From positions 1-26,943 of the forward strand of contig NW_003115931.1 in NCBI RefSeq assembly GCF_000003605.2: a stretch of DNA of 26,943 nucleotides, in the 5' to 3' direction. Positions 1,865 to 26,943 of the stretch are shown here, piece by piece; the first letter of the stretch is position 1; each line of letters starts with the position of its first letter. A program made the translations under genes and the position numbers. The notes under the pieces are model-generated. The model made no database searches. It saw only the letters and a program-made list of their open reading frames with translations, and was not told the origin of the DNA. The stretch comes from Saccoglossus kowalevskii. Its lineage: Eukaryota; Hemichordata; Enteropneusta; Harrimaniidae.

Positions 1865-1870
1865 AATACA

Positions 1871-4825: not shown

Positions 4826-5753
4826 TGTCGGCTATAGTGGATGTCAGCTATTAAAATTGCGTACAAAGCTGTACAAAGTGAGTGCAAAATTTGTAGAATA
4901 GCATGTATGTTTGAACTAAGTTGTTGTCATATCTAACCGTAAAATTATAAAGTACGGAAAGTGAATAAAATGCAAGTGAACGTCTCGTATATTAGAATAT
5001 TGCCCTATAAGCTTACCGTAGCATGTTCTAAAGCATCCTAAAACGATAGGAAAAGCATTGGAAAAGTAGGTGGGTTTGCTAATACATTTTACCTAAGTGA
5101 TTGTAATATCGACAACACGGTTAAAAATATAGTAAAATGGGCAAATGTGTTGGAAAAGTCTTATACATTAGCAGATTATACCACTATGAATCCTTGAAAT
5201 GACAAACAAACTAATTACAAAGTAGTGAAAAGTGGTTGCAAAGTTAGCAAAATTACATGGAAATGTGACCTATGTTGTTATATTATTGATACCCATAGTT
5301 AAATGTTAGGAAACGTGAATTAATATGTCGTAAATAGCCGTTTACTAACGTACTGACTTTCGAAGCATGGATAGGTCATAGGTCAACTTACGAAAGACAC
5401 ACGTGAAACGAATGACAATTCGAAACTCTTCCAAAGATTAAATGGCCGCCAATTCGAATAAAATTCAAATGATCCCAGTAGTCGAGTGATCATGTGATGG
5501 ACATGTCACAAAAGTTAAGATCAATAGGGCCTGCCTCGTAATTGCATGGCAGACAATTTGAGCTAACAAGCTTGTTAAATACATTTTTTTGGTTCCGAAA
5601 CCAACATGGAAAAGACATAAAGTATTTTTTTGTATTTTTATTATTGAAATGTAACACCTTTATAGCAGAAAGTCGTGCTGGTTATTTTGATAATTTAAGT
5701 TTATAGAAAGTTTAAAAATTTGCACGTATTTTCAATGCACAACTCCATCTTGC
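4826..5753 (+). repeat. Satellite unit 6 (928 bp, type A); start of duplicated block
   Basis: Complete type A monomer with a mutated landmark (TGTCGG). An extra HindIII site lies at 5009-5014 (CTATAAGCTTACC). Private variants such as GAAACTCTTCC, GGGCCTGCC and GCATGGCAGAC recur only in unit 10, because this unit is part of the 1,654-bp duplicated block. Confidence 0.95.
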
Positions 5754-6480
5754 GGTCGGCTATAGTGTATGTCAGCTATAAAAATTGCGTACAAAGCTGT
5801 ACAAAGTGAGTGCAAAGTTGGTAGATTAGCGTGTATGTTTGAACTAAGTTGTCTTATCTAACCGTAAAATTATAAAGAACGGAAAGTGAATAAAATGCAA
5901 GTGAACATCTCGTATATTAGAATAGTGCCTTATGAGCTTACCGTAGCATGTTCTAAAACATCCTAAAACGATAGGAAAAGCATTAGAAAAGTAGGTGGGT
6001 TTGCTATTACATTTTACCTAAGTCATTGTAATATCGACTCCACAGTTAAAAATATAGAAAAAATGAGCATATGTGCTGGAAAAGCCTCATATATTAGCGG
6101 ATTATACCACTATGAATCCGTGAAATGACAAACAAACTGATTACAAAGTAGTGAAAAGTGGTTGCAAAGTTAGCAAAATTACATGGAAATGTGACCTATG
6201 TTGTTATATTATCGACACCCTTAGTTAAATGTAAGGAAAAGTGAATTAATATGTCGTAAATGACCATTTACTAACGTACTGACTTTCGAAGCATAGATAG
6301 GTCATAGGTCAACTTACGATAGACACACGTGATATGAATGACAATTCGAAACACTTTCAAACATTAAATGGCCGCCAATTCGAATAAAATTCAAATGATC
6401 CCAGTAGTCGCGTGATCATGTGATGGACCTGTCACAAAAGTTAAGATCAATAGGGCGTGCCTCGTAATTGCATGGGAGAC
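4827..6480 (+). repeat. 1,654-bp block duplicated at 8540-10193
   Basis: This block covers most of units 6 and 7 and reappears exactly 3,713 bp downstream with no net indel and about seven substitutions seen by eye. General unit-to-unit differences are far more frequent. It marks a recent four-monomer-register duplication or conversion. Confidence 0.93.
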
Positions 6481-6679
6481 CACTTGAGCTAACAAGCTTG
6501 TTAAATACATTTTTTTGGTTCCGAAACAAACATGGAAAAGACATAAATTATTTCTTTGCATTTTTATTATTGAAATGTAACACCTTTATAGCAGAAAGTC
6601 GTGCTGGTTATTTTGATAATTTAAGTTTATAGAATGTTTAAAAATTTGCACGTATTTTCAATGCACAACTCCCTCTTGC
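5754..6679 (+). repeat. Satellite unit 7 (926 bp, type B); duplicated block
   Basis: First type B unit, with the private form GACTCCACAG, GAGCATATG. Other private variants (GTGTATGTCAG, GTAGATTAGC, AAGTTGTCTTATC, AAGAACGG, GTCGCGTGATC) recur only in unit 11. The duplicated block ends at about 6480, and the unit continues with its own 3' arm. Confidence 0.95.
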
Positions 6680-7607
6680 GGTCGGCTATAGTGGATGTCA
6701 GCTATTAAAATTGCGTACAAAGCTGTACAAAGTGAGTGCAAAGTTGGTAGAATAGCGTGTATGTTTGAACTAAGTTGTTGTCATATCTAACCGTAAAATT
6801 ATAAAGTACGGAAAGTGAATAAAATGCAAGTGAACGTCTCGTATAATAGAATAGTGCCCTATGAGCTTACCGTAGCATGTTCTAAAGCATCCTAAAACGA
6901 TAGGAAAAGAATTGGAAAAGTAGGTGGGTTTGCTAATACATTTTACCTAAGTCATTGTAATATCGACAACACGGTTAAAAATATAGTAAAATGGGCAAAT
7001 GTGTTGGAAAAGTCTTATACATTAGCAGATTATACCACTATGAATCCGTGAAATGACAAACAAACTGCTTACAAAGTAGTGCCAAGTAGTTGTAAAGTTA
7101 GCAAAATTACATGGAAATGTGACCTATGTTGATATATTATTGAGACCCATAGTTAAATGTTAGGAAAAGTGAATTAATATATCGTAAATGGCCGTTTACT
7201 AACGTACTGACTTTCGAAGCATGGATAGGTCATAAGTCAACATACGAAAGACACACGTGATACGAATGACAATTCGAAACACTTTCAAACATTAAATGGC
7301 CGCCAATTCGAATAAAATTCAAATGATCCCAGTAGTCGAGTGATCATGTGATGGACCTGGCACAAAAGTTAAGATCAATAGGGCGTGCCTCGTAATTGCA
7401 TGGGAGACTACTTGAGCTAACAAGCTTGTTAAATACATTTTTTTTTGTTTCCGAAACAAACATGGAATACATAAAGTATTTTTTTGTATTTTTATTATTA
7501 AAATGTAACACCTTTATAGCAGAACGTCGTGCTGGTTATTTTGATAATTTAAGTTTATAGAATGTTTAAAAATGTGCACGTAGTTTCAATGCACAACTCC
7601 CTCTTGC
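6680..7607 (+). repeat. Satellite unit 8 (928 bp, type A)
   Basis: Complete type A monomer with a G-type arm. From 7291 it is nearly identical to the adjacent unit 9, sharing the arm variants TTTGTTTCCG, TTATTAAAATG and AGAACGTCG. Confidence 0.95.
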
Positions 7608-7856
7608 GGTCGGCTATAGTGGATGTCAGCTATTAAAATTGCGTACAAAGCTGTACAAAGTGAGTGCAAAATTTGTAGAATAGCACGTATGTTTGAACTA
7701 AGTTGTTGTCATATCTAACCGTAAAATTATAAAGTACGGAAAGTGAATAAAATGCAAGTGAACGTCTCGTATATTAGAATATTGCCCTATGAGCTTACCG
7801 TAGCATGTTCTAAAGCATCCTAAAACGATAGGAAAAGCATTGGAAAAGTAGGTGGG
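7291..7856 (+). repeat. 566-bp block duplicated in the adjacent monomer (8222-8787)
   Basis: Spans the end of unit 8 and start of unit 9. It matches the next monomer at 931-bp spacing with three differences seen (ATGGCC/ATAGCC, GACCTGG/GATCTGG, AGCACG/AGCATG). Shared private variants include TTTGTTTCCG and AGAACGTCG. Confidence 0.9.
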
Positions 7857-8538
7857 GTTTGCTAATACATTTTACCTAAGTCATTGTAATATCGACAACA
7901 CGGTTAAAAATATAGTAAAATGGGCAAAATGTGTTGGAAAAGTTTGATGCATTAGGCAGATTATACCACTAGGAAACCGTGAAATGATAAAACAAAGCTG
8001 CTTTACAAAGTGGTGAAAAAGTAGTGTAAAGTTAGCAAAATTACATGGAAATGTGACCTATGTTGTTATAATATTGATACCCATAGATAAATGCTAGGAA
8101 ACGTGAATTAATATGTCGTAAATGACCGTTTACTAACGTCTGACTTTCGAAGCATGGATAGGTCATAGGTCAGCTTACGAAAGACACACGTGATACGAAT
8201 GACAATTGAACACTTTCAAACATTAAATAGCCGCCAATTCGAATAAAATTCAAATGATCCCAGTAGTCGAGTGATCATGTGATGGATCTGGCACAAAAGT
8301 TAAGATCAATAGGGCGTGCCTCGTAATTGCATGGGAGACTACTTGAGCTAACAAGCTTGTTAAATACATTTTTTTTTGTTTCCGAAACAAACATGGAATA
8401 CATAAAGTATTTTTTTGTATTTTTATTATTAAAATGTAACACCTTTATAGCAGAACGTCGTGCTGGTTATTTTGATAATTTAAGTTTATAGAATGTTTAA
8501 AAATGTGCACGTAGTTTCAATGCACAACTCCCTCTTGC
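7608..8538 (+). repeat. Satellite unit 9 (931 bp, type A) with dense indels
   Basis: Complete type A monomer with a G-type arm. Between about 7850 and 8215 it has many single-base gains and losses (GGTGGGGTTT, GGGCAAAATG, GATAAAACAAAGCTGCTTT, AACGTCTGAC, CAATTGAACAC) that no other unit shares. This looks like consensus error more than biological divergence. Confidence 0.93.
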
Positions 8539-9466
8539 GGTCGGCTATAGTGGATGTCAGCTATTAAAATTGCGTACAAAGCTGTACAAAGTGAGTGCAA
8601 AATTTGTAGAATAGCATGTATGTTTGAACTAAGTTGTTGTCATATCTAACCGTAAAATTATAAAGTACGGAAAGTGAATAAAATGCAAGTGAACGTCTCG
8701 TATATTAGAATATTGCCCTATGAGCTTACCGTAGCATGTTCTAAAGCATCCTAAAACGATAGGAAAAGCATTGGAAAAGTAGGTGGGTTTGCTAATACAT
8801 TTTACCTAAGTCATTGTAATATCGACAACACGGTTAAAAATATAGTAAAATGGGCAAATGTGTTGGAAAAGTCTTATACATTAGCAGATTATACCACTAT
8901 GAATCCTTGAAATGACAAACAAACTAATTACAAAGTAGTGAAAAGTGGTTGCAAAGTTAGCAAAATTACATGGAAATGTGACCTATGTTGTTATATTATT
9001 GATACCCATAGTTAAATGTTAGGAAACGTGAATTAATATGTCGTAAATAGCCGTTTACTAACGTACTGACTTTCGAAGGATGGATAGGTCATAGGTCAAC
9101 TTACGAAAGACACACGTGAAACGAATGACAATTCGAAACTCTTCCAAAGATTAAATGGCCGCCAATTCGAATAAAATTCAAATGATCCCAGTAGTCGAGT
9201 GATCATGTGATGGACATGTCACAAAAGTTAAGATCAATAGGGCCTGCCTCGTAATTGCATGGCAGACTATTTGAGCTAACAAGCTTGTTAAATACATTTT
9301 TTTGGTTCCGAAACCAACATGGAAAAGACATAAAGTATTTTTTTGTATTTTTATTATTGAAATGTAACACCTTTATAGCAGAAAGTCGTGCTGGTTATTT
9401 TGATAATTTAAGTTTATAGAAAGTTTAAAAATTTGCACGTATTTTCAATGCACAACTCCATCTTGC
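8539..9466 (+). repeat. Satellite unit 10 (928 bp, type A); mosaic copy
   Basis: Mosaic monomer. The arm before it and its first ~250 bp match units 8/9 at 931-bp spacing. From 8540 onward it matches unit 6 at 3,713-bp spacing. The two matches overlap at 8540-8787. Confidence 0.95.
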
Positions 9467-10193
9467 GGTCGGCTATAGTGTATGTCAGCTATAAAAATTG
9501 CGTACAAAGCTGTACAAAGTGAGTGCAAAGTTGGTAGATTAGCGTGTATGTTTGAACTAAGTTGTCTTATCTAACCGTAAAATTATAAAGAACGGAAAGA
9601 GAATAAAATGCAAGTGAACATCTCGTATATTAGAATAGTGCCTTATGAGCTTACCGTAGCATGTTCTAAAACATCCTAAAACGATAGGAAAAGCATTAGA
9701 AAAGTAGGTGGGTTTGCTATTACATTTTACCTAAGTCATTGTAATATCGACTCCACAGTTAAAAATATAGAAAAAATGAGCATATGTGCTGGAAAAGCCT
9801 CATATATTAGCAGATTATACCACTATGAATCCGTGAAATGACAAACAAACTGATTACAAAGTAGTGAAAAGTGGTTGCAAAGTTAGCAAAATTACATGGA
9901 AATGTGACCTATGTTGTTATATTATCGACACCCTTAGTTAAATGTAAGGAAAAGTGAATTAATATGTCGTAAATGGCCATTTACTAACGTACTGACTTTC
10001 GAAGCATAGATAGGTCATAGGTCAACTTACGATAGACACACGTGATATGAATGACAATTCGAAACACTTTCAAACATTAAATGGCCGCCAATTCGAATAA
10101 AATTCAAATGATCCCAGTAGTCGCGTGATCATGTGATGGACCTGTCACAAAAGTTAAGATCAATAGGGCGTGCCTCGTAATTGCATGGGAGAC
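8540..10193 (+). repeat. Copy of the 1,654-bp block at 4827-6480
   Basis: Covers most of units 10 and 11. Differences noted: TATAAGC/TATGAGC, AAGTGATTG/AAGTCATTG, GAAGCATGG/GAAGGATGG, AGACAATTTG/AGACTATTTG, AAAGTGAAT/AAAGAGAAT, TAGCGGATT/TAGCAGATT and AATGACCATT/AATGGCCATT (first/second copy). Confidence 0.93.
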
Positions 10194-10392
10194 TACTTAA
10201 GCTAACAAGCTTGTTAAATACATTTTTTTGGGGTTCCGAAACAAACATGGAATACATAAAGTATTTTTTTGTATTTTTATTATTGAAATGTTACACCTTT
10301 ATAGCAGAAAGTCGTGCTGGTTATTTTGATAATTTAAGTTTATAGAATGTTTAAAAATTTGCACGTAGTTTCAATGCACAACTCCCTCTTGC
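9467..10392 (+). repeat. Satellite unit 11 (926 bp, type B); copy of unit 7
   Basis: Near-identical to unit 7 until about 10193, where the match stops just past GCATGGGAGAC. The following arm is a hybrid (TTTGCACGTAGTTT). Confidence 0.95.
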
Positions 10393-11321
10393 GGTCGGCT
10401 ATAGTGGATGTCAGCTATTAAAATTGCGTACAAAGCTGTACAAAGTGAGTGCAAAGTTGGTAGAATAGCGTTTATGTTTGAAGTAAGTTGTTGTCATATC
10501 TAACCGTAAAATTATAAAGTACGGACAGTGAATAAAATGCAAGTGAACGTCTCGTATATTAGAATATTGCCCTATGAGCTTACCGTAGCTTGTCCTAAAG
10601 CATCCTAAAACGATAGGAAAAGCATTGGAAAAGTAGGTGGGTTTGCTAATACATTTTACCTAAGTCATTGTAATATCGACAACACGGTTAAAAATATAGT
10701 AAAATGGGCAAATGTGTTGGAAAAGTCTTATACATTAGCAGATTATACCACTATGAAACCGTGAAATGATAAACAAACTGCTTACAAAGTAGTGAAAAGT
10801 AGTTGTAAAGTTAGCAAAATTACATGGAAATGTGACCTATGTTGTTATATTATTGATACCCATAGTTAAATGTTAGGAAACGTGAATTAATATGTCGTAA
10901 ATGACCGTTTACTAACGTACTGACTTTCGAAGCATGGATAGGTCATATGTCAACTTACGAAAGACACACGTGATACGAATGACAATTCGAAACACTTTCA
11001 AACATTAAATGGCCGCCAATTCGAATAAAATTCAAATGATCCCAGTAGTCGAGTGATCATGTGATGGACCTGTCACAAAAGTTAAGATCAATAGGGCGTG
11101 CCTCGTAATTGCATGGGAGACTACTTGAGCTAACAAGGTTGTTAAATACATTTTTTGGGGGTTCCCGAAACAAACATGGAATACATAAAGTATTTTTTTG
11201 TATTTTTATTATTGAAATGTTACACCTTTATAGCAGAAAGTCGTGCTGGTTATTTTGATAATTTAAGTTTATAGAATGTTTAAAAATGTGCACGTAGTTT
11301 CAATGCACAACTCCCTCTTGC
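10393..11321 (+). repeat. Satellite unit 12 (929 bp, type A)
   Basis: Complete type A monomer with a G-type arm. It shares GAAGTAAG and GTCCTAAAGC with unit 3, about nine monomers upstream, and its second half resembles unit 5. The HindIII site is lost (ACAAGGTT). Confidence 0.95.
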
Positions 11322-12247
11322 GGTCGGCTATAGTGGATGTCAGCTATTAAAATTGCGTACAAAGCTGTACAAAGTGAGTGCAAAGTTGGTAGAATAGCGT
11401 GTATGTTTGAACTAAGTTGTTGTCATATCTAACTGTAAAATTATAAAAGTACGGAAAGTGAATAAAATGCAAGTGAAACGTCTCGTATATTAGAATAGTG
11501 CCCTATGAGCTTACCGTAGCATGTTCTAAAGCATCCTAAAACGATAGGAAAAGCATTGGAAAAGTAAGTGGGTTTGCTAATACATTTTACCTAAGTCATT
11601 TTAATATCGACAACACGGTTAAAATATAGTAAAATGGGCAATGTGTGGAAAAGTCTATACATTAGCAGATATACCACTATTGAAACCGTGAAATGATAAA
11701 CAAACTGAATACAAAGTAGTGAAAAGTAGTTGTGAAGTTTGCAAAATTACATGGAAATGTGACTATGTTGTTATATATCGACACCCATAGTTAAATGTTA
11801 GGAAAAGTGAATTAATATGCCGTAAATGGCCCGTTTACTAACGTACTGACTTTCGAAGCATTGATAGGTCAGAGGTCAACTTACGGGCGACAAACGTGAA
11901 ACGAATGACAATTCGAAACACTTCCAAAGATTAAATGGCCGCCAATTCGGATAAAATTCAAATGATCCCAGTAGTTGAGTGATCTTGTGATTGGCCTGTC
12001 ACAAAAGTTAGGATCTATCGGGCGCGGCTAGTAATTGCATGGGAGACTACTTGAGCTAACAAGCTAGTGAAATACATTTTTTTTGGTTCCGAAACAAACA
12101 TGGAAAAGACATAAAGTATTTTTTTGTATTTTTATTATTGAAATGTAACACCTTTATAGCAGAAAGTCGTGCTGGTTATTTTGATAATTTAAGTTTATAG
12201 AATGTTTAAAAATGTGCACGTAGTTTCAATGCACAACTCCCTCTTGC
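11322..12247 (+). repeat. Satellite unit 13 (926 bp, type A) with dense indels and a well-preserved 5S-like segment
   Basis: Type A monomer with a G-type arm. Indels cluster at about 11445-11890 (AAAAGTACGG, GTGAAACGTC, GGGCAATGTGTGG, GTGACTATG). Its 5S-like segment has the 5S-closer form TATCGGGCGCGGCTAG, and the HindIII site is lost (AAGCTAGTG). Confidence 0.93.
11997..12047 (+). pseudogene. 5S rRNA-like segment, unit 13
   Basis: Same 5S-like segment with GTTAGGATCTATCGGGC for box A plus intermediate element, and GGCTAGTAATTGCATGGG for box C. It retains CGGGCGCGG, which is close to the CGGGC(G/C)(C/T)GG of invertebrate 5S genes. This form is closer to 5S than the usual AATAGGGCGTGCCTCG. 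Confidence 0.66.
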
Positions 12248-13176
12248 GGTCGGCTATAGTGGATGTCAGCTATTAAAATTGCGTACAAAGCTGTACAAAG
12301 TGAGTGCAAAGTTGGTAGAATAGCGTTTATGTTTGAAGTAAGTTGTTGTCATATCTAACTGTAAAATTATAAAGTACGGAAAGTGAATAAAATGCAAGTG
12401 AACGTCTCGTATATTAGAATAGTGCCCTATGAGCTTACCGTAGCATGTTCTAAAGCATCCTAAAACGATAGGAAAAGCATTGGAAAAATAGGTGGGTTTG
12501 CTAATACATTTTACCTAAGTCTTGGTAATATCGACAACACGGTTAAAAATATAGTAAAATGGGCAAATGTGTTGGAAAAGTCTTATACATTAGCAGATTA
12601 TACCACTATGAAACCGTGAAATGATAAACAAACTGCTTACAAAGTAGTGAAAAGTAGTTGTAAAGTAAGCAAAATTACATGGAAATGTGACCTATGTTGT
12701 TATATTATTGACACCCATAGTTAAATGTTAGGAAAAGTGAATTAACATGTCGTAAATGGCCGTTTACTAACGTACTGACTTTCAAAGCATAGATAGGTCA
12801 GAGGTCAACTTACGAAAGACACACGTGAAACGAATGACAATTCGAAATACTTCCAAAGATTAAATGGCCGCCAATTCGAATAAAATTCAAATGATCCCAG
12901 TAGTCGAGTGATCATGTGATGGACATGTCACAAAAGTTAAGATCAATACGGCGTGCCTCGTAATTGCATGGGAGACTACTTGAGCTAACAAGCTTGTTAA
13001 ATACATTTTTTGGTTCCAAAACAAACATGGAAAAGATATAAAGTATTTTTTTTTGTATTTTTATTATTGAAATGTAACACCTTTATAGCAGAAAGTCGTG
13101 CTGGTTATTTTGGTAATTTAAGTTTATAGAATGTTTAAATATTTGCACGTATTTTCAATGCACAACTCCCTCTTGC
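12248..13176 (+). repeat. Satellite unit 14 (929 bp, type A)
   Basis: Complete type A monomer. The 5' part has the GAAGTAAG variant of units 3 and 12; the second half switches to the CTTCCAAAGATT form. The 3' arm is T-type and stays so through unit 22. Confidence 0.95.
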
Positions 13177-14104
13177 GGTCGGCTATTGTGGATGTCAGCT
13201 ATAAAAATTGCGTACAAAGCAGTACAAAGTGAGTGCAAAGTTTGTAAAATAGCGTGTATGTTTGAACTAAGTTTTTGTCATATCTAACCGTAAAATTATA
13301 AAGTACGGAAAGTGAATAAAATGCAAGTGAACGTCTCGTATATTAGAATAGTGCCCTATGAGCTTACTGTAGCATGTTCTAAAACATCCTAAAACGATAG
13401 GAAAAGCTTTAGAAAAGTAGGTAGTTTTGCTAATACATTTTACCTAAGTCATTGTAATATCGACAACACGGTTAAAAATATAGAAAAAATGAGCAAAGGT
13501 GTTGGAAAAGTCTTATACATTAGCAGATTATACCACTATGAAACCGTGAAATGATAAACAAACTGATTACAAAGTAGTGAAAGGTAGTTGTAAAGTTAGC
13601 AAAATTACTTAGAAATGTGACCTATGTTGTTATATTATTGACACCCATAGTTAAATGTTAGGAAAAGTGAATTAATATGTCGTAAATGGCCGTTTACTAA
13701 CGTACTGACTTTCGAAGCATAGATAGGTCAGAGGTCAACTTACGAAAGACACACGTGAAACGAATGACAATTCGAAACACTTCCAAAGATTAAATGGCCG
13801 CCAATTCGAAGTAAATTCAAATGATCCCAGTAGTCGAGTGATCATATGATGGACATGTCACAAAAGTTAAGATCAATAGGGCGTGCCTCGTAATTGCATG
13901 GGAGACTACTTGAGCTAACAAGCTTGTTAAATACATTTTTTGGTTCCAAAACAAACATGGAAAAGACAGAAAGTATTTTTTTGCATTTTTTTTATTGAAA
14001 TGTAACACCTTTATAGCAGAAAGTCGTGCTGGTTATTTTGATAATTTAAGTTTATAAAATGTTTAAAAATTTGCACGTATTTTCAATGCACAACTCCCTC
14101 TTGC
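13177..14104 (+). repeat. Satellite unit 15 (928 bp, A/B hybrid)
   Basis: The central segment is a hybrid. It begins as type A (GACAACACGG), continues as type B (ATAGAAAAAATGAGC), then returns to type A (GGAAAAGTCTTATACATTAG). Confidence 0.95.
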
Positions 14105-15034
14105 GGTCGGCTATAGTGGATGTCAGCTAATGAAATTGCGTACAAAGCTGTACAAAGTGAGTGCAAAGTTGGTAGAATAGCGTGTATGTTTGAACTAAGT
14201 TGTTGTCATGTCTAACCGTAAAATTATAAAGTACGGAAAGTGAATATAATGCAAGTGAACGTCTCGTATATTAGAATAGTGCCTTATGAGCTTACCGTAT
14301 CATGTTCTAAAACATCCTAAAACGATAGGAAAAGCATTAGAAAAGTAGGTGGGTTTGCTAATACATTTTACCTAAGTCAATGTAATATCGACAACACGGT
14401 TAAAAATATAGTAAAATGGGCAAATGTGTTGGAAAAGTCTTATACATTAGCAGATTATACCACTATAAAACCATGAAATGATAAACAAACTGATTACAAA
14501 GTAGTGAAAAGCGGTTGTAAAGTTAGCAAAATTACATGGAAATGTGACCTATGTTGTTATATTATTGAGACCCATAGTTAAATTTTAGGAAAAGTGAATT
14601 AATATGTCGTAAATGGCCGTTTACTAACGTACTGACTTTCGAAGCATGGATAGGTCATAGGTCAACTTACGAAAGACACACGTGAAACGAATGACAATTC
14701 GAAACACTTTCAAACATTAAATGGTCGCCAATTCGAATAAAATTCAAATGATCCCAGTAGTCGAGTGATCATGTGATGGACCTGTCACAAAAGTTAAGAT
14801 CAATAGGGCGTGCCTCGTAATTGCATGGGAGACTACTTGAGCTAACAAGCTTGTTAATTACATTTTTGTTTGGTTCCGAAACAAACATGGAAAAGACATA
14901 ACGTATTTTTTTGTATTTTTATTTTTGAAATGTAACACCTTTTTAGCAGAAAGTCGTGCTGGTTATTTTGATAATTTAAGTTTATAGAATGTTTAAAAAT
15001 TTGCACGTATTTTCAATGCACAACTCCCTCTTGC
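14105..15034 (+). repeat. Satellite unit 16 (930 bp, type A)
   Basis: Complete type A monomer with a T-type arm. The arm has TTAATTACATTTTTGTTTGG and CCTTTTTAGCAG. Unit 17 shares both, and unit 20 shares the latter. Confidence 0.95.
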
Positions 15035-15965
15035 GGTCGGCTATAGTGGATGTCAGCTATAAAAAATGCGTACAAAGCTGTACAAAGTGAGTGCAAAGTT
15101 GGTAGAATAGCGTGTATGTTTGAACTAAGTTGTTGTCATATCTAACCGTAAAATTATAAAGTACGGAAAGTGAACAAAATGCAAGTGAACGTCTCGTATA
15201 TTAGAATAGTGCCCTATGAGCTTACCGTAGCATGTTCTAAAACATCCTAAAACGATAGGAAAAGCGTTAGAAAAGTAGGTGGGTTTGCTAATACATTTTA
15301 CGTAAGTCATTGTAATATCGACCCCACAGTTAAAAATATAGAAAAAATGAGCAAATGTGCTGGAATAGCCTCATATATTAGCAGATTAAACCATTATGAA
15401 TCCGAGAAATGACAAACAAACTGATTACAAAGTAGTGAAAAGTGGTTGCAAAGTTAGCAAAATTACATGGAAATGTGACCTATGTTGTTATATTATCGAC
15501 ACCCATAGTTAAATGTTAGGAAAAGTGAATTAATATGTCGTAAATGGCCGTTTACTAACGTACTGACTTTCGAAGCATGGATAGGTCATAGGTCAACTTA
15601 CGAAAGACACACGTGAAACGAATGACAATTCGAAACACTTTCAAACATTAAATGGCCGCCAATTCGAATAAAATTCAAATGATCCCAGTAGTCGTGTGAT
15701 CATGTGATGGACCTGTCACAAAAGTTAAGATCAATAGGGCGTGCCTCGTAATTGCATGTGAGACTACTTGAGCTAACAAGCTTGTTAATTACATTTTTGT
15801 TTGGTTCCGAAACAAACATGGAAAAAACATAACGTATTTTCTTGTATTTTTATTTTTGAAATGTAACACCTTTTTAGCAGAAAGTCGTGCTGGTTATTTT
15901 GATAATTTAAGTTTATAGAACGTTTAAAAATTTGCACGTATTTTCAATGCACAACTCCCTCTTGC
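15035..15965 (+). repeat. Satellite unit 17 (931 bp, type B)
   Basis: Complete type B monomer (GACCCCACAG, GAAAAAATGAGC, GCCTCATATATTAG) with a T-type arm shared with unit 16. Confidence 0.95.
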
Positions 15966-16893
15966 GGTCGGCTATAGTGGATGTCAGTTAATAAAATTGC
16001 GTACAAAGCTGTACAAAGTGAGTGCAAAGTTTGTAGAATAGCGTGTATGTTTGAACTAAGTTGTTGTCATGTCTAACCGTAAAATTATAAAGTACTGAAA
16101 GTGAATATAATGCAAGTGAACGTCTCGTATATTAGAATAGTGCCCTAGGAGCTTACCGTAGCATGTTCTAAAACATCCTAAAACGATAGGAAAAGCATTG
16201 GAAAAGTTGGTGGGTTTGCTAATACATTTTACCTAAGTCATTGTAATATCGACCCCACAGTTAAAAATATAGAAAAAATGAGCAAATGTGTTGGAAAAGC
16301 CTCATATATTAGCAGATTATACCACTATGAATCCGTGAAATAATAAACAAACTGATTACAAAGTAGTGAAAAGTGGTTGTAAAGTTAGCAAAATTACATT
16401 GAAATGTGACATATGTTGTTATATTATTGAGACCCATAGTTAAATGTTAGGAAAAGTGAATTAATATGTCGTAAATGGCCGTTTACTAACGTACTGACTT
16501 TCGAAGCATGGATAGGTCCTAGGTCAACTTACGAAAGACACACGTGAAACGAATGACAATTCGAAACACTTCCAAAGATTAAATGTCCGCCAATTCGAAA
16601 AAATTCAAATGATACTAGTAGTCGAGTGATCATGTGATTGGCCTGTCACAAAAGTTATGATCAATAGGGCGTGCCTCGTAATTGCATGGGAGACCAATTG
16701 AGCTAACAAGCTTGTTAAATACATTTTTTTTGGTTCCGAAACAAACATGGAAAAGACATAAAGTATTTTTTTGTATTTTTATTATTGAAATGTAACACCT
16801 TTAAGCAGAAAGTCGTGCTGGTTATTTTGATAATTTAAGTTTATAGAATGTTTAAAAATTTGCACGTATTTTCAATGCACAATTCCCTCTTGC
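15966..16893 (+). repeat. Satellite unit 18 (928 bp, type B)
   Basis: Complete type B monomer with one type A base (GTGTTGG). Just before the 5S-like segment it has GATTGGCCTGTCAC, shared with units 13 and 19. A small deletion gives ATTCGAAAAAATTC. Confidence 0.95.
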
Positions 16894-17823
16894 GGTCGGC
16901 TATAGTGGATGTCAGCTATTAAAATTGCGTACAAAGCTGTACAAAGTGAGTGCAAAGTTGGTAGAATAGCGTGTATGTTTGAACTAAGTTGTTGTCATAT
17001 CTCACCGTAAAATTATAAAGTACGGAAAGTGAATAAAATGCAAGTGAACGTCTCGTATATTAGAATAGTGCCCTATGAGCTTACCGTAACATGTTCTAAA
17101 ACATACTCAAGAGATAGGAAAAGCATTAGAAAATTAGGTGGGTTTGCTAATACATTTTACCTAAGACATTGTAATATCGACCGCACAGTTAAAAATATAG
17201 AAAAAATGAGCAAATGTGCTGGAAAAGCCTCATATATTAGCAGATTATACCACTATGAATCCGTGAAATAATAAACAAACTGATTACAAAGTAGTGAAAA
17301 GTGGCTGTAAAGTTAGCAAAATTACATGGAAATGTGACCTATGTTGTTATATTATCGACACCCATAGTTAAATGTTAGGAAAAGTGAATTAATATGTCGT
17401 AAATGGCCGTTTACTAACGTACTGACTTTCGAAGCATAGATAGGTCAGAGGTCAACTTACGAAAGACACACGTGAAACGAATGACAATTCGAAACACTTC
17501 CAAAGATTAAATGGCCGGCAATTCGAAAAAAATCAAATGATCCCAGTAGTCGAGTGATCATGTGATTGGCCTGTCACAAAAGTTAAGATCTATCGGGCGT
17601 GGCTAGTAATTGCATGGGAGACTACTTGAGCTAACAAGCTTGTTAAATACATTTATGTTTGGTTCCGCAACTAACATGGAAAAGACATAACGTATTTTTT
17701 TGTATTTTTATTATTGAAATGTAACACCTTTATAGCAGAAAGTCGTGCTGGTTATTTTGATAATTTAAGTTTATAAAATGTTTAAAAATTTGCACGTATT
17801 TTCAATGCACAACTCCATCTTGC
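16894..17823 (+). repeat. Satellite unit 19 (930 bp, type B) with opened sense frame and best 5S-like segment
   Basis: Complete type B monomer. Four substitutions at 17105, 17108, 17111 and 17112 remove the stop codon that closes the sense frame in the other units. Its 5S-like segment (17572-17630) is the best match to 5S rRNA in the window. Confidence 0.95.
17572..17630 (+). pseudogene. 5S rRNA-like segment (3' half with internal promoter boxes), unit 19
   Basis: From AAAAGTTAAG through GCATGGGAGAC, this segment aligns without gaps to the region of animal 5S rRNA running from box A (AAGCTAAG in vertebrates) to box C (ending GGATGGGAGAC). By eye 33 of 45 bases match the vertebrate form, and 26 of 30 match from TCGGGC onward. 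The mismatches are concentrated in a 5-bp gap region. Upstream, CCTGTCAC resembles the 5S CTGATCTC. The 5' third of 5S is not recognisable, so this is a fragment or relic, not a working 5S gene. In eukaryotic 5S genes this part holds the TFIIIA-bound internal control region. Alternative: convergence, unlikely given the match length and correct box spacing. Confidence 0.7.
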
Positions 17824-18754
17824 GGTCGGCTATAGTGGATGTCACCTATAAAAATTGCGTACAAAGCTATACAAAGTGAGTGCAAAGTTGGTAGAATAGC
17901 GTGTATGTTTGAACTAAGTTGTTTTCATATCTAACCGTAAAATTATAAAGTACGGAAAGTGAATAAAATGCAAGTGAACGTCTCGTATATTAGAATAGTG
18001 CCCTATGAGCTTACCGTAGCATGTTCTAAAACATCCTAAAACGATAGGAAAAGCATTAGAAAAGTAGGTGGTTTTGCTAATACATTTTACCTAAGTCATT
18101 GTAATATCGACAACACGGTTAAAAATATAGAAAAAATCAGCAAAGGTGTGGAAAAGTCTTATACATTAGCAGATTATACCACCATGAAACCGTGAAATGA
18201 TAAACAAACTGATTACAAAGTAGTGAAAAGTAGTTGTAAAGTTAGCAAAATTACATGGAAATGTGACCTATTTTGTTATATTATTGACGCCCATAGTTAA
18301 ATGTTAGAAAAGTGAATTAATATGTCGTAAATGGCCGTTTACTAACGTACTGACTTTCGAATGCATAAGAAAAGGTCAGAGGTCAACTTACGAAAGACAC
18401 ACGTGAAACGAATGACAATTCGAAACACTTCTAAAGATTAAATGGCCGCCAATTCGAATATAATTCAAATGATCCCAGTAGTCGAGTGATCATGTGATGG
18501 ACATGTCACAAAAGTTAAGATCAATAGGGCGTGACTCGTAATTGCATGGGAGACTACTTGAGCTAACAAGCTTGTTAAATACATTTTTTTTGGTTCCGAA
18601 ACAAACATGGAAAAGACATAACGTATTTTTTTGTATTTTTATTTTTGAAATGTAACACCTTTTTAGCAGAAAGTCGTGCTGGTTATTTTGATAATTTAAG
18701 TTTATAGAATGTTTAAAAATTTACACGTATTTTCAATGCACAACACCCTCTTGC
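17824..18754 (+). repeat. Satellite unit 20 (931 bp, A/B hybrid)
   Basis: Hybrid central segment (type A start, GAAAAAATCAGC, type A end). It has a local rearrangement, GAATGCATAAGAAAAGGTCAG, where other units read GAAGCATGGATAGGTCA. Confidence 0.94.
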
Positions 18755-19686
18755 GGTCGGCTATAATGGATGTCAGCTATTAAAATTGCGTACAAAGCTG
18801 TACAAAGTGAGTGCAAAGTTGGTAGAATAGCGTGTATGTTTGAACTAAGTTGTTGTCATTTCTAACCGTAAAATTATAAAGTACGGACAGTGAATAAAAT
18901 GCAAGTGAACGTCTCGTATATTAGAATAGTGCCCTATGAGCTTACCGTAGCATGTTCTAACACATCCTAAAACGATAGGAAAAGCATTAGAAAAGTAGGT
19001 GGTTTTGCTAATACATTTTACCTAAGTCATTGTAATATCGACAACACGGTTAAAAATATAGAAAAAAACGAGCAAAGGTGTTGGAAAAGTCTTATACATT
19101 AGCAGATTATACCACTATGAAACCGTGAAATGATAAACAAACTGATTACAAAGTAGTGAAAAGTAGTTGTAAAGTTAGCAAAATTACATGGAAATGTGAC
19201 CTATGTTGTTATATTATCGACACCCATAGTTAAATGTTAGGAAAAGTGAATTAATATGTCGTAAATGGCCGTTTACTGACGTACTGACTTTCGAAGCATG
19301 GATAGGTCATAGGTCAACTTACGAAAGACACACGTGATACGTATGACAATTCGAAACACTTTCAAACATTAAATGGCCGCCAATTCGAATAAAATTCAAA
19401 TGATCCCAGTAGTCGAGTGATCATGTGATGAACCTGTCAGAAAAGTTAAGATCAATAGGGCGTGCCTCTTAATTGCGTGGGAGAGTACTTGAGCTAACAA
19501 GCTTATTAAATACATTTTTTTTTGGTTCCGAAACAAACATGGAAAAGACAGAAAGTATTTTTTTGCATTTTTATTATTGAAATGTAACACCTTTATAGCA
19601 GAAAGTCGTGCTGGCTATTTTGATAATTTAAGTTTATAAAATGTTTAAAAATTTGCACGTATTTTCAATGCACAACTCCATCTTGC
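18755..19686 (+). repeat. Satellite unit 21 (932 bp, A/B hybrid)
   Basis: Hybrid central segment (GACAACACGG, GAAAAAAACGAGC, GTCTTATACATTAG), T-type arm, and HindIII palindrome degraded to AAGCTTATTA. Confidence 0.95.
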
Positions 19687-20618
19687 GGTCGGCTATAGTG
19701 GATGTCAGCTATAAAAATTGCGTACAAAGCTGTACAAAGTGAATGCAAAGTTGGTAGAATAGCGTGTATGTTTGAACTAAGTTGTTGTCATTTCTAATCG
19801 TAAAATTATAAAGTACGGAAAGTGAATAAAATGCAAGTGAACGTCTCGTATATTAGAATAGTGCCCTATGAGCTTACCGTAGCATGTTCTAAAACATCCT
19901 AAAACGATAGGAAAAGCATTAGAAAAGTAGGTGGTTTTGCTAATACATTTTACCTAAGTCATTGTAATATCGACAACACGGTTAAAATTATAGAGAAAAT
20001 GATCAAAGTTGTTGGAAAAGTCTTATATATTAGCAGATTATACCGCTATGAATCCGTGAAATGATAAACAAACAGCTTACAAAGTAGTGAAAAGTAGTTG
20101 TAAAGTTAGCAAAATTACATGGAAATGTGACCTATGTTGTTATATTATTGAGACCCATAGTTAAATGTTAGGAATGGTGAATTAATATGTCGTAAACGGC
20201 CGTTTACTAACGTACTGACTTTCGAAGCATGTATATGTCAGAGGTCAACTTACGAAAGACACACGTGAAACGAATGACAATTCGAAACACTTCCAAAGAT
20301 TAAATGGCCGCCAATTCGAATAAAATTCAAATGATACCAGTAGTCGAGTGATCATATGATGGACCTGTCACAAAAGTTAAGATTAATAGGGCGTGCCTCG
20401 TAATTGCATGGGAGACTACCTGAGCTAACAAGCTTGTTAAATACATTTTTTTTTTGGTTCCGAAACAAACATGGAAAATACATAAAGTATTTGTTTGTAT
20501 TTTTATTATTGAAATGTAACACCTTTATAGCAGAAAGTCGTGCTGGTTATTTTGATAATTTAAGTTTATAGAATGTTTAAAAATTTGCACGTATTTTCAA
20601 TGCACAACTCCTTCTTGC
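19687..20618 (+). repeat. Satellite unit 22 (932 bp, A/B hybrid)
   Basis: Hybrid central segment with private changes (ATAGAGAAAATGATC). It is the last of the run of hybrid units and has a T-type arm with a long T-run. Confidence 0.95.
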
Positions 20619-21546
20619 GGTCGGCTATAGTGGATGTCAGCTATTAAAATTGCGTACAAAGCAGTACAAAGTGAGTGCAAAGTTGGTAGAATAGCGTGTA
20701 TGTTTGAACTAAGTTGTTGTCATATCTAACCGTAAAATTATAAAGTACGGAAAGTGAATAAAATGCAAGTGAACGTCTCGTATATTAGAATAGTGCCCTA
20801 TGAGCTTACCGTAGCATGTTCTAAAGCATCCTAAAACGATAGGAAAAGCACTGGAAAAGTAGGTGGGTTTGCTAATACATTTTACCTAAGTCATTGAAAT
20901 ATCGACCCCACAGTTAAAAATATAGAAAAAATGAGCAAATGTGCTGGAAAAGCCTCATATATTAGCAGATTATACCACTATGAATCCGTGAAATGACAAA
21001 CAAACTAATTACAAAGTAGTGAAAAGTGGTTGCAAAGTTAGCAAAATTACATGGAAATGTGACCTATGTTGTTATATTATCGACGCCCATAGTTAAATGT
21101 TAGGAAAAGTGAATTAATATGTCGTAAATGGCCGTTTACTAACATACTGACTTTCGAAGCATGGATAGGTCATAGGTCAACTTACGAAAGACACACGTGA
21201 TACGAATGACAATTCGAAACACTTTCAGACATTAAATGGCCGCCAATTCGAATAAAATTCAAATGATCCCAGTAGTCGAGTGATCATGTGATGGACCTGA
21301 CACAAAAGTTAAGATCAATAGGGCGTGCCTCGTAATTGCATGGGAGACTACTTGAGCTAACAAGCTTGTTAAATACATTTTTTTTGGTTCCGAAACAAAC
21401 ATGGAATACTTAAAGTATTTTTTTGTATTTTTATTATTCAAATGTAACACCTTTATAGCAGAAAGTTGTGCTGGTTATTTTGATAATTTAAGTTTATAGA
21501 ATGTTTAAAAATGTGCACGTAGTTTCAATACACAACTCCCTCTTGC
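20619..21546 (+). repeat. Satellite unit 23 (928 bp, type B)
   Basis: Complete type B monomer with a G-type arm preceded by ATGGAATACTTAAAG. It shares CTTTCAGACATT with unit 24 and TCGACGCCCATAG with unit 25. Confidence 0.95.
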
Positions 21547-22473
21547 GGTCGGCTGTAGTGGATGTCAGCTATTAAAATTGCGTACAAAGCTGTACAAAGT
21601 GAGTGCAAAGTTGGTAGAATAGCGTGTATGTTTGAACTAAGTTGTTGTCATATTTAACCGTAAAATTATAAAGTACGGAAAGTGAATAAAATGCAAGTGA
21701 ACGTCTCGTATATTAGAATAGTGCCCTATGAGCTTACCGTAGCATGTTCTAAAGCATCCTAAAACGATAGGAAAAGCATTGGAAAAGTAGGTGGGTTTGC
21801 TAATACATTTTACCTAAGTCATTGTAATATCGACAACACGGTTAAAAATATAGTAAAATGGGCAAATGTGTTGGAAAAATCTTATACATTAGCAGATTAT
21901 ACCACTATGAAACCGTGAAATGATAAACAAACTGCTTACAAAGTAGTGACAAGTAGTTGTAAAGTTAGCAAAATTACATGGAAATGTGACCTATGTTGTT
22001 ATATTATTGAGACCCATAGTTAAATGTTAGGAAAAGTGAATTAATATATCGTAAATGGCCGTTTACTAACGTACTGACTTTCGATGCATGGATAGGTCAT
22101 AGGTCAACATACGAAAGACACACGTGATACGAATGACAATTCGAAACACTTTCAGACATTAAATGGCCGCCAATTCGAATAAAATTCAAATGATCCCAGT
22201 AGTCGAGTGATCATGTGATGGACCTGGCACAAAAGTTAAGATCAATAGGGCGTGCCTCGTAATTGCATGGGAGACTACTTGAGCTAACAAGCTTGCTAAA
22301 TACATTTTTTTTGGTTCCGAAAAAAACATGGAATACTTAAAGTATTTTTTTGTATTTTTATTATTGAAATGTAACACCTTTATAGCAGAAAGTCGTGCTG
22401 GTTATTTTGATAATTTAAGTTTATAGAATGTTTAAAAATGTGCACGTAGTTTCAATGCACAACTCCCTCTTGC
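21547..22473 (+). repeat. Satellite unit 24 (927 bp, type A)
   Basis: The only type A unit in the right-hand third, flanked by type B units, with a G-type arm. The second half resembles unit 8 (GACAAGTAG beside GCCAAGTAG, AATATATCG, GACCTGGCAC). Confidence 0.95.
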
Positions 22474-23403
22474 GGTCGGCTATAGTGGATGTCAGCTATT
22501 AAAATTGCGTACAAAGCTGTACAAAGTGACTGCAAAGTTGGTAGAATAGCGTGTATGTTTGAACTAAGTTGTTGTCATATCTAACCGTAAAATTATAAAG
22601 TACGGAAAGTGAATAAAATGCAAGCGAACGTCTCGTATATTAGAATAGTGCCCTATGAGCTTACCGTAGCATGTTCTAAAGCATCCTAAAACGATAGGAA
22701 AAGCATTGGAAAAGTAGGTGGGTTTGCTAATACATTTTACCTAAGTCATTGTAATATCGACCCCACAGTTAAAAATATAGAAAAAATGAGCAAATGTGCT
22801 GGAAAAGCCTCATATATTAGCAGATTATACCACTATGAATCCGTGAAATGATTAACAAACTGATTACAAAGTAGTGAAAAGTGGTTGCAAAGTTAGCAAA
22901 ATTACATGGAAATGTGACCTATGATGTTATATTATCGACGCCCATAGTTAAATGTTAGGAAAAGTGAATTAATATGTCGTAAATGGCCGTTTACTAACAT
23001 ACTGACTTTCGAAGCATGGATAGGTCATAGGTCAACTTACGAAAGACACACGTGATACGAATGACAATTCGAAACACTTTCAAACATTAAATGGCCGCCA
23101 ATTCGAATAAAATTCAAATGATCCCAGTAGTCGAGTGATCATGTGATAGACCTGACATAAAAGTTAAGATCAATAGGGCGTGCCTCGTAATTGCATGGGA
23201 GACTACTTGAGCTAACAAGGTTGTTAAATACATTTTTTTTTTGGTTCCGAAACAAACATGGAATACTTAAAGTATTTTTTTGTATTTTTATTATTGAAAT
23301 GTAACACCTTTATAGCAGAAAGTCGTGCTGGTTATTTTGATAATTTAAGTTTATAGAATGTTTAAAAATGTGCACGTAGTTTCAATGCACAACTCCCTCC
23401 TGC
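22474..23403 (+). repeat. Satellite unit 25 (930 bp, type B)
   Basis: Complete type B monomer with a G-type arm. The HindIII site is lost (ACAAGGTT). Confidence 0.95.
22480..22721 (+). repeat. 242-bp monomer region missing from unit 26
   Basis: This part of unit 25 corresponds to the stretch deleted from the following monomer at about 23410. It holds the first GTACAAAG cluster, the GGAAAGTGAATAAAATGC element and the first two-thirds of the sense frame. Confidence 0.85.
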
Positions 23404-24087
23404 GGTCGGGTTTGCTAATACATTTTACTAAGTCATTGTAATATCGACCCCACAGTTACAAATATAGAAAAAAATGAGCAAATGTGCTGGAAAAGCTCAT
23501 ATATTAGCAGATTATACCACTATGAATCCGTGAAATGACAAACAAACTAATTACAAAGTAGTGAAAAGTGGTTGCAAAGTTAGCAAAATTACATGGAAAT
23601 GTGACCTATGTTGTTATATTATTGATACCCATAGTTAAATGTTAGGAAACGTGAATTAATATGTCGTAAATAGCCGTTTACTAACGTACTGACTTTCGAA
23701 GCATGGATAGGTCATAGGTCAACTTACGGAAGACACACGTGATACGAATGACAATTCGAAACACTTTCAAACATTAAATGGCCGCCAATTCGAATAAAAT
23801 TCAAATGATCCCAGTAGTCGAGTGATCATGTGATGGTCCTGGCACAAAAGTTAAGATCAATAGGGCGTGCCTCGTAATTGCATGGGAGACTATTGAGCTA
23901 ACAAGCTTGTTAAATACATTTTTTTTGGTTCCGAGACAAACATGGAATACATAAAGTATTTTTTTGTATTTTTATTATTGAAATGTAACACCTTTATAGC
24001 AGAAAGTCGTGCTGGTTATTTTGATAATTTAAGTTTATAGAATGTTTAAAAATGTGCACGTAGTTTCAATACACAACTCCCTCTTGC
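23404..24087 (+). repeat. Satellite unit 26, internally deleted (684 bp, type B)
   Basis: The landmark GCGGTCGG joins directly to GTTTGCTAATAC at about 23410. This removes 242 bp corresponding to 22480-22721 of unit 25. The missing part holds the first GTACAAAG stretch and the start of the sense frame. Both parental edges end in GG, so the junction has a 2-bp microhomology. The remaining type B segment and 3' end are intact apart from small indels just past the junction. Confidence 0.95.
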
Positions 24088-25017
24088 GGTCGGCTATAGT
24101 GGATGTCAGCTATTAAAATTGCGTACAAAGCTGTACAAAGTGAGTGCAAAGTTGGTAGAATAGCGTGTATGTTTGAACTAAGTTGTTGTCATATTTAACC
24201 GTAAAATTATAAAGTACGGAAAGTGAATAAAATTCAAGTGAACGTCTCGTATATTAGAATAGTGCCCTATGAGCTTACCGTAGCATGTTCTAAAGCATCC
24301 TAAAACGATAGGAAAAGCATTGGAAAAGTAGGTGGGTTTGCTAATACATTTTACCTAAATCATTGTAATATCGACCCCACAGTTAAAAATATAGAAAAAA
24401 TGAGCAAATGTGCTGGAAAAGCCTCATATATTAGCAGATTATACCACTATGAATCCGTGAAATGACAAACAAACTAATTACAAAGTAGTGAAAAGTGGTT
24501 GCAAAGTTAGCAAAATTACATGGAAATGTGACCTATGTTGTTATATTATTGATACCCATAGTTAAATGTTAGGAAACGTGAATTAATATGTCGTAAATAG
24601 CCGTTTACTAACGTACTGACTTTCGAAGCATGGATAGGTCATAGGTCAACTTACGAGAGACACACGTGATACGAATGACAATTCGAAACACTTTCAAACA
24701 TTAAATGGCCGCCAATTCGAATAAAATTCAAATGATCCCAGTAGTCGAGTGATCATGTGATGGACCTGGCCCAAAAGTTAAGATCAATAGGGCGTGCCTC
24801 GTAATTGCATGGGAGACTACTTGAGCTAACAAGCTTGTTAAATACATTTTTTGTTGGTTCCGAAACAAACATGGAAAAGACATAAAGTATTTTTTGTATT
24901 TCTATTATTGAAATGTAACACCTTTATAGCAGAAAGTCGTGCTGGTTATTTTGATAATTTAAGTTTATAGAATGTTTAAAAATTTGCACGTATTTTCAAT
25001 GCACAACTCCCTCTTGC
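24088..25017 (+). repeat. Satellite unit 27 (930 bp, type B)
   Basis: Complete type B monomer. The ATGCAAGTG start of the sense frame is changed to TTCAAGTG, so the frame lacks its usual start codon. The arm returns to T-type. Confidence 0.95.
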
Positions 25018-25942
25018 GGTCGGCTATAGTGGATGTCAGCTATTAAAATTGCGTACAAAGCTGTACAAAGTGAGTGCAAAGTTGGTAGAAGAGCGTGTAT
25101 GTTTGAACTAAGTTGTTGTCATATCTAACCGTAAAATTATGAAGTACGGAAAGTGAATAAAATGCAAGTGAACGTCACGTATATTAGAATAGTGCCCTAT
25201 GAGCTTAACGTAGCATGTTCTAAAACATTCTAAAACGATAGGAAAAGCGTTAGAAAATTAGGTGGGTTTGCTAATACATTTTACCTAAGTCATTGTAATA
25301 TCGACCCCACAGTTAAAAATATAGAAAAAATGAGCAAATGTGTTGGAAAAGCCTCATATATTAGCAGATTATACCACTATGAATCCGTGAAATGATAAAC
25401 AAACTGATTACAAAGTAGTGAAAAGTGGTTGCAAAGTTAGCAAAATTACATGGAAATGTGACCTATGTTGTTATATTATCGACACCCATAGTTAAATGTT
25501 AGAAAAGTGAATTAGTATGTCGTAAATGGCCGTTTACTACATACTGACTTTCGAAGCATGGATAGGTCATAGTCAACTTACGAAAGACACACGTGAAACG
25601 AATGACAATTCGAAACACTTTCAAACATAAATGGCCGCCAATTCGAATAAAATTCAAATGATCCCAATAGTCGAGTGATCATGTGATGGACTGTCATAAA
25701 AGTTAAGATCAATAGGGCGTGCCTCGTAATTGCATGGGAGACCACTTGAGCTAACAAGCTTGTTAAATACATTTTTGTTGGTTCCGAAACAAACATGGAA
25801 AAGACATAATGTATTTTTTTGTATTTTTATTATTGAAATTTGATACCTTTATAGCAGAAAGTCGTGCTGGTTATTTTGATAATTTAAGTTTATAGAATGT
25901 TTAAAAATTTGGACGTATTTTCAATGCACAACTCCCTCTTGC
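25018..25942 (+). repeat. Satellite unit 28 (925 bp, type B)
   Basis: Complete type B monomer, the shortest full-length copy. Several single-base losses lie at 25500-25700 (TTACTACATACTG, CATAGTCAAC, CAAACATAAATGG). Confidence 0.94.
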
Positions 25943-26869
25943 GTTCGGCTATAGTGGATGTCAGCTATTAAAATTGCGTACAAAGCTGTACAAAGTGAGT
26001 GCAAAGTTGGTAGAATAGCGTGTATGTTTGAACTAAGTTGTTGTCATATCTAACCGTAACATTATAAAGTACGGAAAGTGAATAAAATGCAAGTGAACGT
26101 CTAGTATATTAGAATAGTGCCCTATGAGCTTACCGTAACATGTTCTAAAACATCCTAAAACGATAGGAAAAGCATTAGAAAAGTAGGTGGGTTTGCTAAT
26201 ACATTTTACCTAAGTCATTGTAATATCGACCCCACAGTTAAAAATATAGAAAAAATGAGCAAATGTGTTGGAAAAGCCTCATATATTAGCAGATTATACC
26301 ACTATGAATCCGTGAAATGATAAACAAACTGATTACAAAGTAGTGAAAAGTGGTTGCAAAGTTAGCAAAATTACATGGAAATGTGACCTATGTTATATTA
26401 TCGACACCCATAGTTAAATGTTAGGAAAAGTGAATTAATATGTCGTAATTGGCCGTTTACTAACGTACTGACTTTCGAAGCATGGATAGGTCATAGGTCA
26501 ACTTACGAAAGACACACGTGATACGAATGACAATTCGAAACACTTTCAAACATTAAATGGCCGCCAATTCAAAAGTATTCAAATGATCCCAGTAGTCGAG
26601 TGATCATGTGTTGGGCCTGTTACAAAAGTTAAGATCTATCGGTCGCAGCTAGTAATTGCATGGGAGACTACTTGAGCTAACTAGCTGGTGAAATACATTT
26701 ATTTTTGGTTCCGAAACAAACATGGAAAATACATAACGCATTTTTTTGTATTTTTTATTATTAAAATGTAACACCTTTATAGTAGAAAGTCGTGCTGTTT
26801 ATTTTGATATTTAAGTTTATAGAATGTTAAAAATTTGCACGTATATTTCAATTCACAACTCCCTCTTGC
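25943..26869 (+). repeat. Satellite unit 29 (927 bp, type B) with preserved 5S-like segment
   Basis: Complete type B monomer. The 5S-like segment (26618-26668) has the TATCGG, GCTAG form seen in units 13 and 19. The HindIII site is lost (TAGCTGGTG), paralleling AGCTAGTG in unit 13. Confidence 0.95.
26618..26668 (+). pseudogene. 5S rRNA-like segment, unit 29
   Basis: Third copy with the 5S-closer form: GTTAAGATCTATCGGTCGC, then AGCTAGTAATTGCATGGG. Two bases are worse than in unit 19 (CGGTCGCAG for CGGGCGTGG). Box C ending in ATGGGAGAC is intact. Confidence 0.64.
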
Positions 26870-26943
26870 GGTCGGCTGTAGTGGATGTCAGCTATAAAAT
26901 TGCGTACAAGCTGTACAAAGTGAGTGCAAGTTGGTAGAATAGC
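26870..26943 (+). repeat. Partial monomer at the right edge
   Basis: This is the first 74 bp of the next unit, cut by the window end. It has several single-base losses (GCTATAAAATTG, GTACAAGCTG, GCAAGTTGG), so the array clearly continues past the window. Confidence 0.95.

Follow-up and report, generated by a model that had tools for sequence, protein, structure and literature searches.

A satellite array of Saccoglossus kowalevskii carrying a segment derived from 5S rRNA

The locus described here raises the question of how a long tandem satellite came to carry a short stretch that resembles the internal promoter of a 5S rRNA gene: whether the resemblance is real, from which kind of 5S sequence it descends, and whether the stretch has been kept better than the rest of the repeat.

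The array and its 5S-derived segment

The window, that is, the whole stretch of DNA analysed, is the entire contig C930 with 26,943 bases, from a genome assembly of 572 Mb and 4830 contigs. It consists of a single head-to-tail array of satellite units with a monomer of ~929 bp. The 29 anchors in the window are separated by 27 spacings of 925–932 bp and one of 687 bp, and the identity to the tiled unit consensus is 93.5–97.2% across positions 3–26943. Long head-to-tail arrays are a trait of 5S-derived satellites; here the anchors fill the window, and more arrays lie on other contigs. The unit of 687 bp, at about 22926–23612, has an internal deletion of ~240 bp (unit positions about 486–725). 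A tRNA scan of the window found no tRNA.

The sequence-only reading had described in unit 19 a 5S-derived segment with box A, intermediate element, and box C at ungapped 5S spacing, agreeing by eye with a remembered animal 5S at 26 of 30 positions, and had proposed an alignment to the host's own 5S genes. These genes are represented in the same genome by 47 scored matches of 105–113 bits, all above the RF00001 cut-off, and the comparison confirms the segment and raises the count. Unit 19 agrees with host 5S at 28 of 30 positions from TCGGGC to GGGAGAC (17593–17622) and at 37 of 45 with box A included, without gaps, and AAGTTAAG of box A is identical at all eight of its positions. None of 200 first-order Markov windows of equal length exceeded 22/30 and 28/45, and on the reverse strand the counts were 17 (of 30) and 22 (of 45). 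A BLAST signal to 5S, whose absence was to have counted against the segment, was found over 49 bp with 83.7% identity (E about 5e-10 against a set of only six sequences). The segment originates from 5S. Homology of part of the monomer to host 5S beyond chance is a trait of satellites of the PcP190 and 5SHindIII type, and the presence of 5S promoter boxes in the repeat is common to the Cassandra and Ajax TRIMs.

The covariance-model check proposed alongside had a different outcome: Rfam scans of the window at the gathering cut-off and up to E = 10 gave no RF00001 match, and scans up to E = 10 gave none for the unit-19 segment or for two stretches of ~940-bp relatives (L049, L050). The rRNA fold is gone from the window satellite and from these relatives. 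The features are listed in Table 1, in which a host 5S position p corresponds to window position p + 17531; the limits of the box A, intermediate element, and box C follow a numbering that we take from Xenopus 5S.

Table 1. Positions of the array, of unit 19, and of its 5S-related features in the window.
Feature	Position	Strand	Remarks
Satellite array	1..26943	+	29 anchors; consensus tiles 3–26943
Unit 19, carrying the described segment	17346..18274	+	Consensus tiling
Putative position equal to 5S +1, if the start spacing was kept	17532	+	Register with host 5S
5S-derived stretch	17569..17622	+	Register of host 5S 38–91, ungapped; clear at 49–91, weaker at 38–48 (6/11)
Box A equivalent (5S 50–64)	17581..17595	+	11/15 against host 5S; AGTTAAG identical
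Intermediate element equivalent (5S 67–72)	17598..17603	+	5/6 against host 5S
Box C equivalent (5S 80–97)	17611..17628	+	15/18 against host 5S; first 12 identical
Place of terminator-like T-run	17652..17660	+	Broken in unit 19 (TTTATGTTT)

Unit 19, which had served as the example, does carry the segment, but it is the best-preserved case and not a typical one. Of the 29 units in the window, one agrees with host 5S at 28/30 core positions, another at 27/30, and the other 27 at 22–25/30; a typical unit stands at 25/30, and the window consensus has five changes in the 30-bp core. Box A retains AAGTTAAG in 27 of the 29 units, and GCATGGGAGAC persists in 25; the middle of the core is changed in most of them, the majority reading TAGGGCGTGCCTCGTAA. 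In a set of 57 distinct window-family units, which is biased towards unit 19 as it combines the window with loci picked as best unit-19 matches, five have at most four core mismatches and 52 have five to eight. The variability of the core inside the window is unremarkable, at the 17th percentile for 45 columns and the 35th for 30 columns. Most window units are probably promoter-weakened, and because they look so, the window is probably a mostly dead branch.

A common local haplotype around the core is found in units 13, 19, and 29 (12020, 17595, and 26641), which in units 13 and 19 is closer to host 5S than the majority (27/30 and 28/30), while unit 29 has 25/30. Units 13 and 19 are ordinary outside the core and are probably mosaics, in which old variants were spread by local exchange.

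The sequence-only reading also placed a T-run 29 bases past GGGAGAC in a typical unit. This spacing holds for 25 of the 29 units (runs of at least five T, counted from box C), with one unit at 28 nt and two at 33 nt, and fails in unit 19, the sole window unit with a broken run, where the next T-run lies 72 nt past box C. In host 5S, the T-run starts 27 or 28 nt past box C, and from random window positions the chance of the next run of five T falling 24–30 nt downstream is 1.5%. Between box C and the T-run of unit 19, a perfect 14-bp palindrome, TAACAAGCTTGTTA, is present at 17632–17645 and likewise in unit 20; it is missing from all five aligned 940-bp relatives.

Related satellites and 5S arrays in the genome

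A genome-wide search with a core pattern of 29 places (up to three mismatches) gave 8949 matches, whereas the reversed control pattern gave none. The matches come from real 5S genes and from satellites of no fewer than two kinds. By tail or spacer patterns with up to three mismatches, which miss more diverged copies, the window family was found to have 179 copies, its ~940-bp relatives 2558, and a 216-bp satellite 2251; about 3900 of the 8949 core matches fall outside these three patterns. Together, the three pattern families occupy ~3 Mb by rough arithmetic, or about half a percent of the assembly. Window-family copies among the 100 matches listed (of 179) fall in eight contigs. The related satellites, 940–945 bp long, are homologous to the window unit over the full length with 62–66% identity, and the window satellite is a member of a superfamily of related satellites. 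Weak matches of the relatives to a Streptococcus sRNA family (E 0.18–1.4, far under the cut-off) were set aside as chance.

Fragments of the ~940-bp satellite are present in large contigs as well, for instance at about 3121–5596 of C994 (992 kb), 14% diverged, and at about 2994–4264 of C3229 (538 kb), 27% diverged. These copies span about one to three units and look like scattered pieces of arrays rather than transposed single units. More exact pieces were seen in C203 and C1340, and single matches also in C74.

The separate 216-bp satellite (contigs C111, C404, C242, and C554) contains a nearly whole 5S-like stretch with 87–89% identity to host 5S, and its units have only the 5S part in common with the ~929-bp and ~940-bp satellites. 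Across two 4-kb stretches, from C404 and C242, it gave 36 full matches and one cut match to RF00001 with 41–98 bits, and two real 5S genes in the same scan scored 110 and 113 bits. The real 5S arrays are also arranged head to tail, with a repeat of 1139 bp in C3485 and of about 1580 bp in C2212 and C3801. Between these two repeat kinds (C3485 and C2212), similarity is mostly confined to the gene and the 55 bp or so 3' of it. The rest of the satellite unit, compared with both host 5S spacers, has no similarity to them outside the core; this dissimilarity carries little weight, since the two host spacers have little in common even with each other.

In contig C2777, two satellite units lie between 518-bp direct repeats, an arrangement that was considered as a TRIM and rejected. 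The repeats end in TG...CA, CGGAA lies at each edge of the satellite, and further repeats outside point to a longer element, so the 518-bp repeats are better taken as the LTRs of another, inserted element. The LTRs, at 3272–3789 and 5641–6158, look like those of an ordinary LTR element and lie in a satellite array. The two copies occupy the same site, two units apart, which suggests that element and satellite were later duplicated in tandem together.

The same assembly includes a mitochondrial contig (C4830), in which TGA stands for Trp, AAA for Lys, and AGA for Ser, ATA is found where Ile is usual, and no AGG codon occurs in the six genes examined. This codon use presumably fits the hemichordate code. 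The nad6 and cox1 genes lie on the opposite strand to nad5, cob, nad1, and nad2; all were named by eye except COX1, which was identified computationally.

Conservation of the core and of its flanks

In five contigs picked by an exact core, the core was the top conserved window, a result that was dropped since the choice is circular. A fairer sample is composed of 12 contigs that were selected, independently of the core, for an exact 33-mer lying about 230 nt away from it; these are 12 of the 14 among the matches listed, C324 and C389 being excluded as earlier chosen by core, and they hold two pairs that are 96% alike and are thus not fully independent. The consensus core of this sample is identical to host 5S at all 30 positions. 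Its mismatches to the 12-contig consensus total 25, where the divergence of the individual units predicts 40 and other 30-column windows average 47 (SD 12.7), 4% of these windows being as low. Perfect cores were found in four of the 12 units, compared with a mean of 0.7 for other windows. By mean pairwise identity, the core lies in the top 5.3% and is not first; the superfamily window at position 66, near the selecting 33-mer, is more conserved. Six of the 12 tail-chosen units carry three or four core mismatches. The T-run follows at 23–33 nt in the eight of the 12 contigs that have the anchor motif. The relic in C3229, 27% diverged from the consensus, has a single core mismatch, which is equalled by 0.8% of its own windows.

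Exact consensus 31-mers were also counted across the genome. The core plus one base occurs 796 times, a typical window 180 times, the tail 219 times, and the best-conserved other window 434 times. Among the 100 matches listed for the core 31-mer, 12 lie in 216-bp 5S-like arrays and three more are uncertain. Even with 15% deducted, intact copies of the core outnumber those of the controls by a factor of about 1.6 to 3.8. Intact cores are in excess genome-wide relative to the three control windows, an excess to which a recent expansion of intact subfamilies may have contributed. The retention of the promoter asserted by the sequence-only reading applies to the superfamily and is poor in most units of the window.

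Family by family, the flanks of the core are not significantly similar to 5S, with p 0.24–0.96 on the 5' side and p 0.12–0.68 on the 3' side. In the 12-contig consensus, both flanks are collinear with 5S, at 4–48 and 99–121, and shuffling gives each of them p about 0.07; the T-run contributes some of the 3' score, and with the T-run held fixed the 3' test gives p = 0.31. Combined and compared with 5S 1–48 plus 92–122, the flanks score 38.5, a value reached at none of 1675 other placements within the unit (which overlap and are not independent) and with p = 0.015 in shuffles. The combined similarity tends to favour an entire 5S gene as the ancestor, short of proof.

Origin and possible role of the satellite

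The explanation put forward here, with a confidence somewhat above even, is that the array is a satellite descended from a tandem 5S rRNA gene repeat in which the control region decayed slowest. The ancestor would be a tandem 5S gene repeat of the same animal, with gene and long spacer arranged head to tail. Once copies ceased to serve as rRNA genes, most of the gene sequence would have decayed past clear recognition, and the internal control region (box A, intermediate element, and box C; 5S about 49–91) would have decayed more slowly, as would the T-run at its 5S-like spacing. Descent from a 5S gene is supported by the match to host 5S, the 30/30 consensus core, and, weakly, the collinear flanks, with a gene repeat as a more probable source than a mobile element. 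The sequence-only reading had offered a 5S gene or a 5S-headed SINE as the ancestor; the first agrees with this evidence, and the second finds no support among the copies examined.

The internal control region of 5S genes is bound by TFIIIA and TFIIIC. The core may have been kept because these factors still bind it, and a bound core could at times direct RNA polymerase III to make a short transcript, about 120–125 nt long, or else act as a bound silent site. Binding or transcription may still be useful somewhere in the family; alternatively, intact copies may merely have spread more. A further proposal is that hundreds of units carry intact type 1 Pol III promoters under selection and that the satellite, derived from 5S genes but released from the constraint of the rRNA fold, would be an element of chromatin that is either bound or transcribed. 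It is considered unlikely; if true, the satellite would provide TFIIIA/TFIIIC sites, perhaps nucleolar tethering, and perhaps a ~120-nt satellite RNA.

The same 5S origin could also hold with a core that has no function, the intact-core subfamilies having been amplified recently or short tracts having been exchanged with real 5S genes. This is regarded as possible, at a tentative level, and is consistent with the ordinary diversity of the core within the window, with the core mismatches in half of the tail-chosen units, and with the clustering of intact cores in some contigs (C324, C482, and C829, among the 100 matches listed). It is opposed by the core being the commonest intact 31-mer of the four counted across the assembly and by the diverged relic that keeps the core but for one base; exchange tracts of only about 30 bp would also be unusual. 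Chance resemblance to 5S, for which the missing covariance-model match could be cited, is contradicted by the agreement of both stretches with host 5S beyond every random window and the reverse strand, and by the empty reversed-pattern search; the host-5S comparison refutes it, and its probability is negligible.

Directly 3' of the T-run, a typical window unit has TGGTTCCGAAAC, a putative primer-binding site that resembles the one for tRNA-Phe at 11 of 12 positions. Such a site would suit a TRIM retrotransposon that carries a 5S promoter within the LTR and is arrayed in tandem, similar to Cassandra or Ajax, as would the satellite fragments in large contigs. Ajax retains only the promoter part of 5S, and Cassandra makes long tandem arrays (PMC10886601, PMC7215508). 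As a primer-binding site, TGGTTCCGAAAC was rejected, being missing in five aligned ~940-bp relatives, with ~0.2 chance matches expected by estimate. Moreover, no LTR pair of the unit's own was found among the loci examined, and the two large-contig copies examined are fragments of more than one unit, so a TRIM origin is improbable. A 5S-headed SINE of the SINE3 type that turned tandem is very improbable. Its retained promoter part and a remainder that is barely 5S-like would fit, and a SINE turned satellite is reported from limpets (PMC11121367). However, SINEs are short, dispersed, and tailed, and the unit here is ~930 bp; the 100 matches listed of the 8949 (exact, in low-numbered contigs only) all lie in array contigs. 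No short dispersed relative was seen among the loci examined, with about 3900 core matches unaccounted for, and the copies examined with more than one unit of flank are tandem arrays or fragments of more than one unit.

Satellites derived from 5S are already known, and the reduction to the promoter is a variant of them. For instance, 5SHindIII of the fish Hoplias malabaricus is reportedly a 5S-derived satellite; it is like the window satellite in its 5S origin and differs in its fish host. PcP190 of hyloid frogs likely arose from 5S rDNA, combines a conserved 5S-like region with an unrelated variable region in several types, and is transcribed along the entire repeat (PMC11675491). It has in common with the window satellite the likely 5S descent and the conserved 5S-like region, but it is ~190 bp long and its conserved 120 bp are ~70% similar to the entire transcribed 5S, whereas the satellite here is ~930–945 bp long with about 43–54 bp clearly 5S (PMC11675491). 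The 216-bp satellite of S. kowalevskii is a closer parallel to PcP190 than the ~929-bp satellite. The authors of the PcP190 study prefer recombination with 5S rDNA over selection as the reason for the conserved part (PMC11675491), and by analogy this caution would apply to the window satellite.

Similarly, Cassandra combines 5S promoter boxes with tandem arrays that have an intervening internal domain, as boxes and arrays are combined here; it is a plant LTR element with a primer-binding site, and none is shown in the window satellite (PMC7215508). The nemertean TRIM Ajax keeps only box A, intermediate element, and box C and has lost the rRNA fold, like the window satellite, but it is an LTR element with 5-bp target duplications, and the array here is without LTRs of its own in the loci examined (PMC10886601). 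In mammals, 5S pseudogenes show biased conservation of the internal factor-binding sites, and a 5S sequence can repress a linked reporter and recruit a locus to the nucleolus (PMC3261910). The preferential conservation of internal sites is shared with these pseudogenes, which are not a satellite (PMC3261910). Word-based, not sequence-based, searches of open-licence literature brought up 5S-derived satellites of frogs and fish, TRIMs with 5S promoters, 5S-headed SINEs of insects, and the SINE-derived limpet satellite; among the titles and abstract openings listed, neither a 5S-derived monomer of ~930 bp nor one from a hemichordate is described, a weak indication that there is none on record.

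5S genes are among the known sources of satellite DNA. The genome of S. kowalevskii holds real 5S arrays, a 216-bp 5S-like satellite, and promoter-keeping satellites of ~930–945 bp, so that stages of decay stand side by side in one genome. The satellite is a candidate for asking whether the 5S machinery still reads or binds such repeats, and its intact and decayed units would allow a test of promoter binding as what maintains them.
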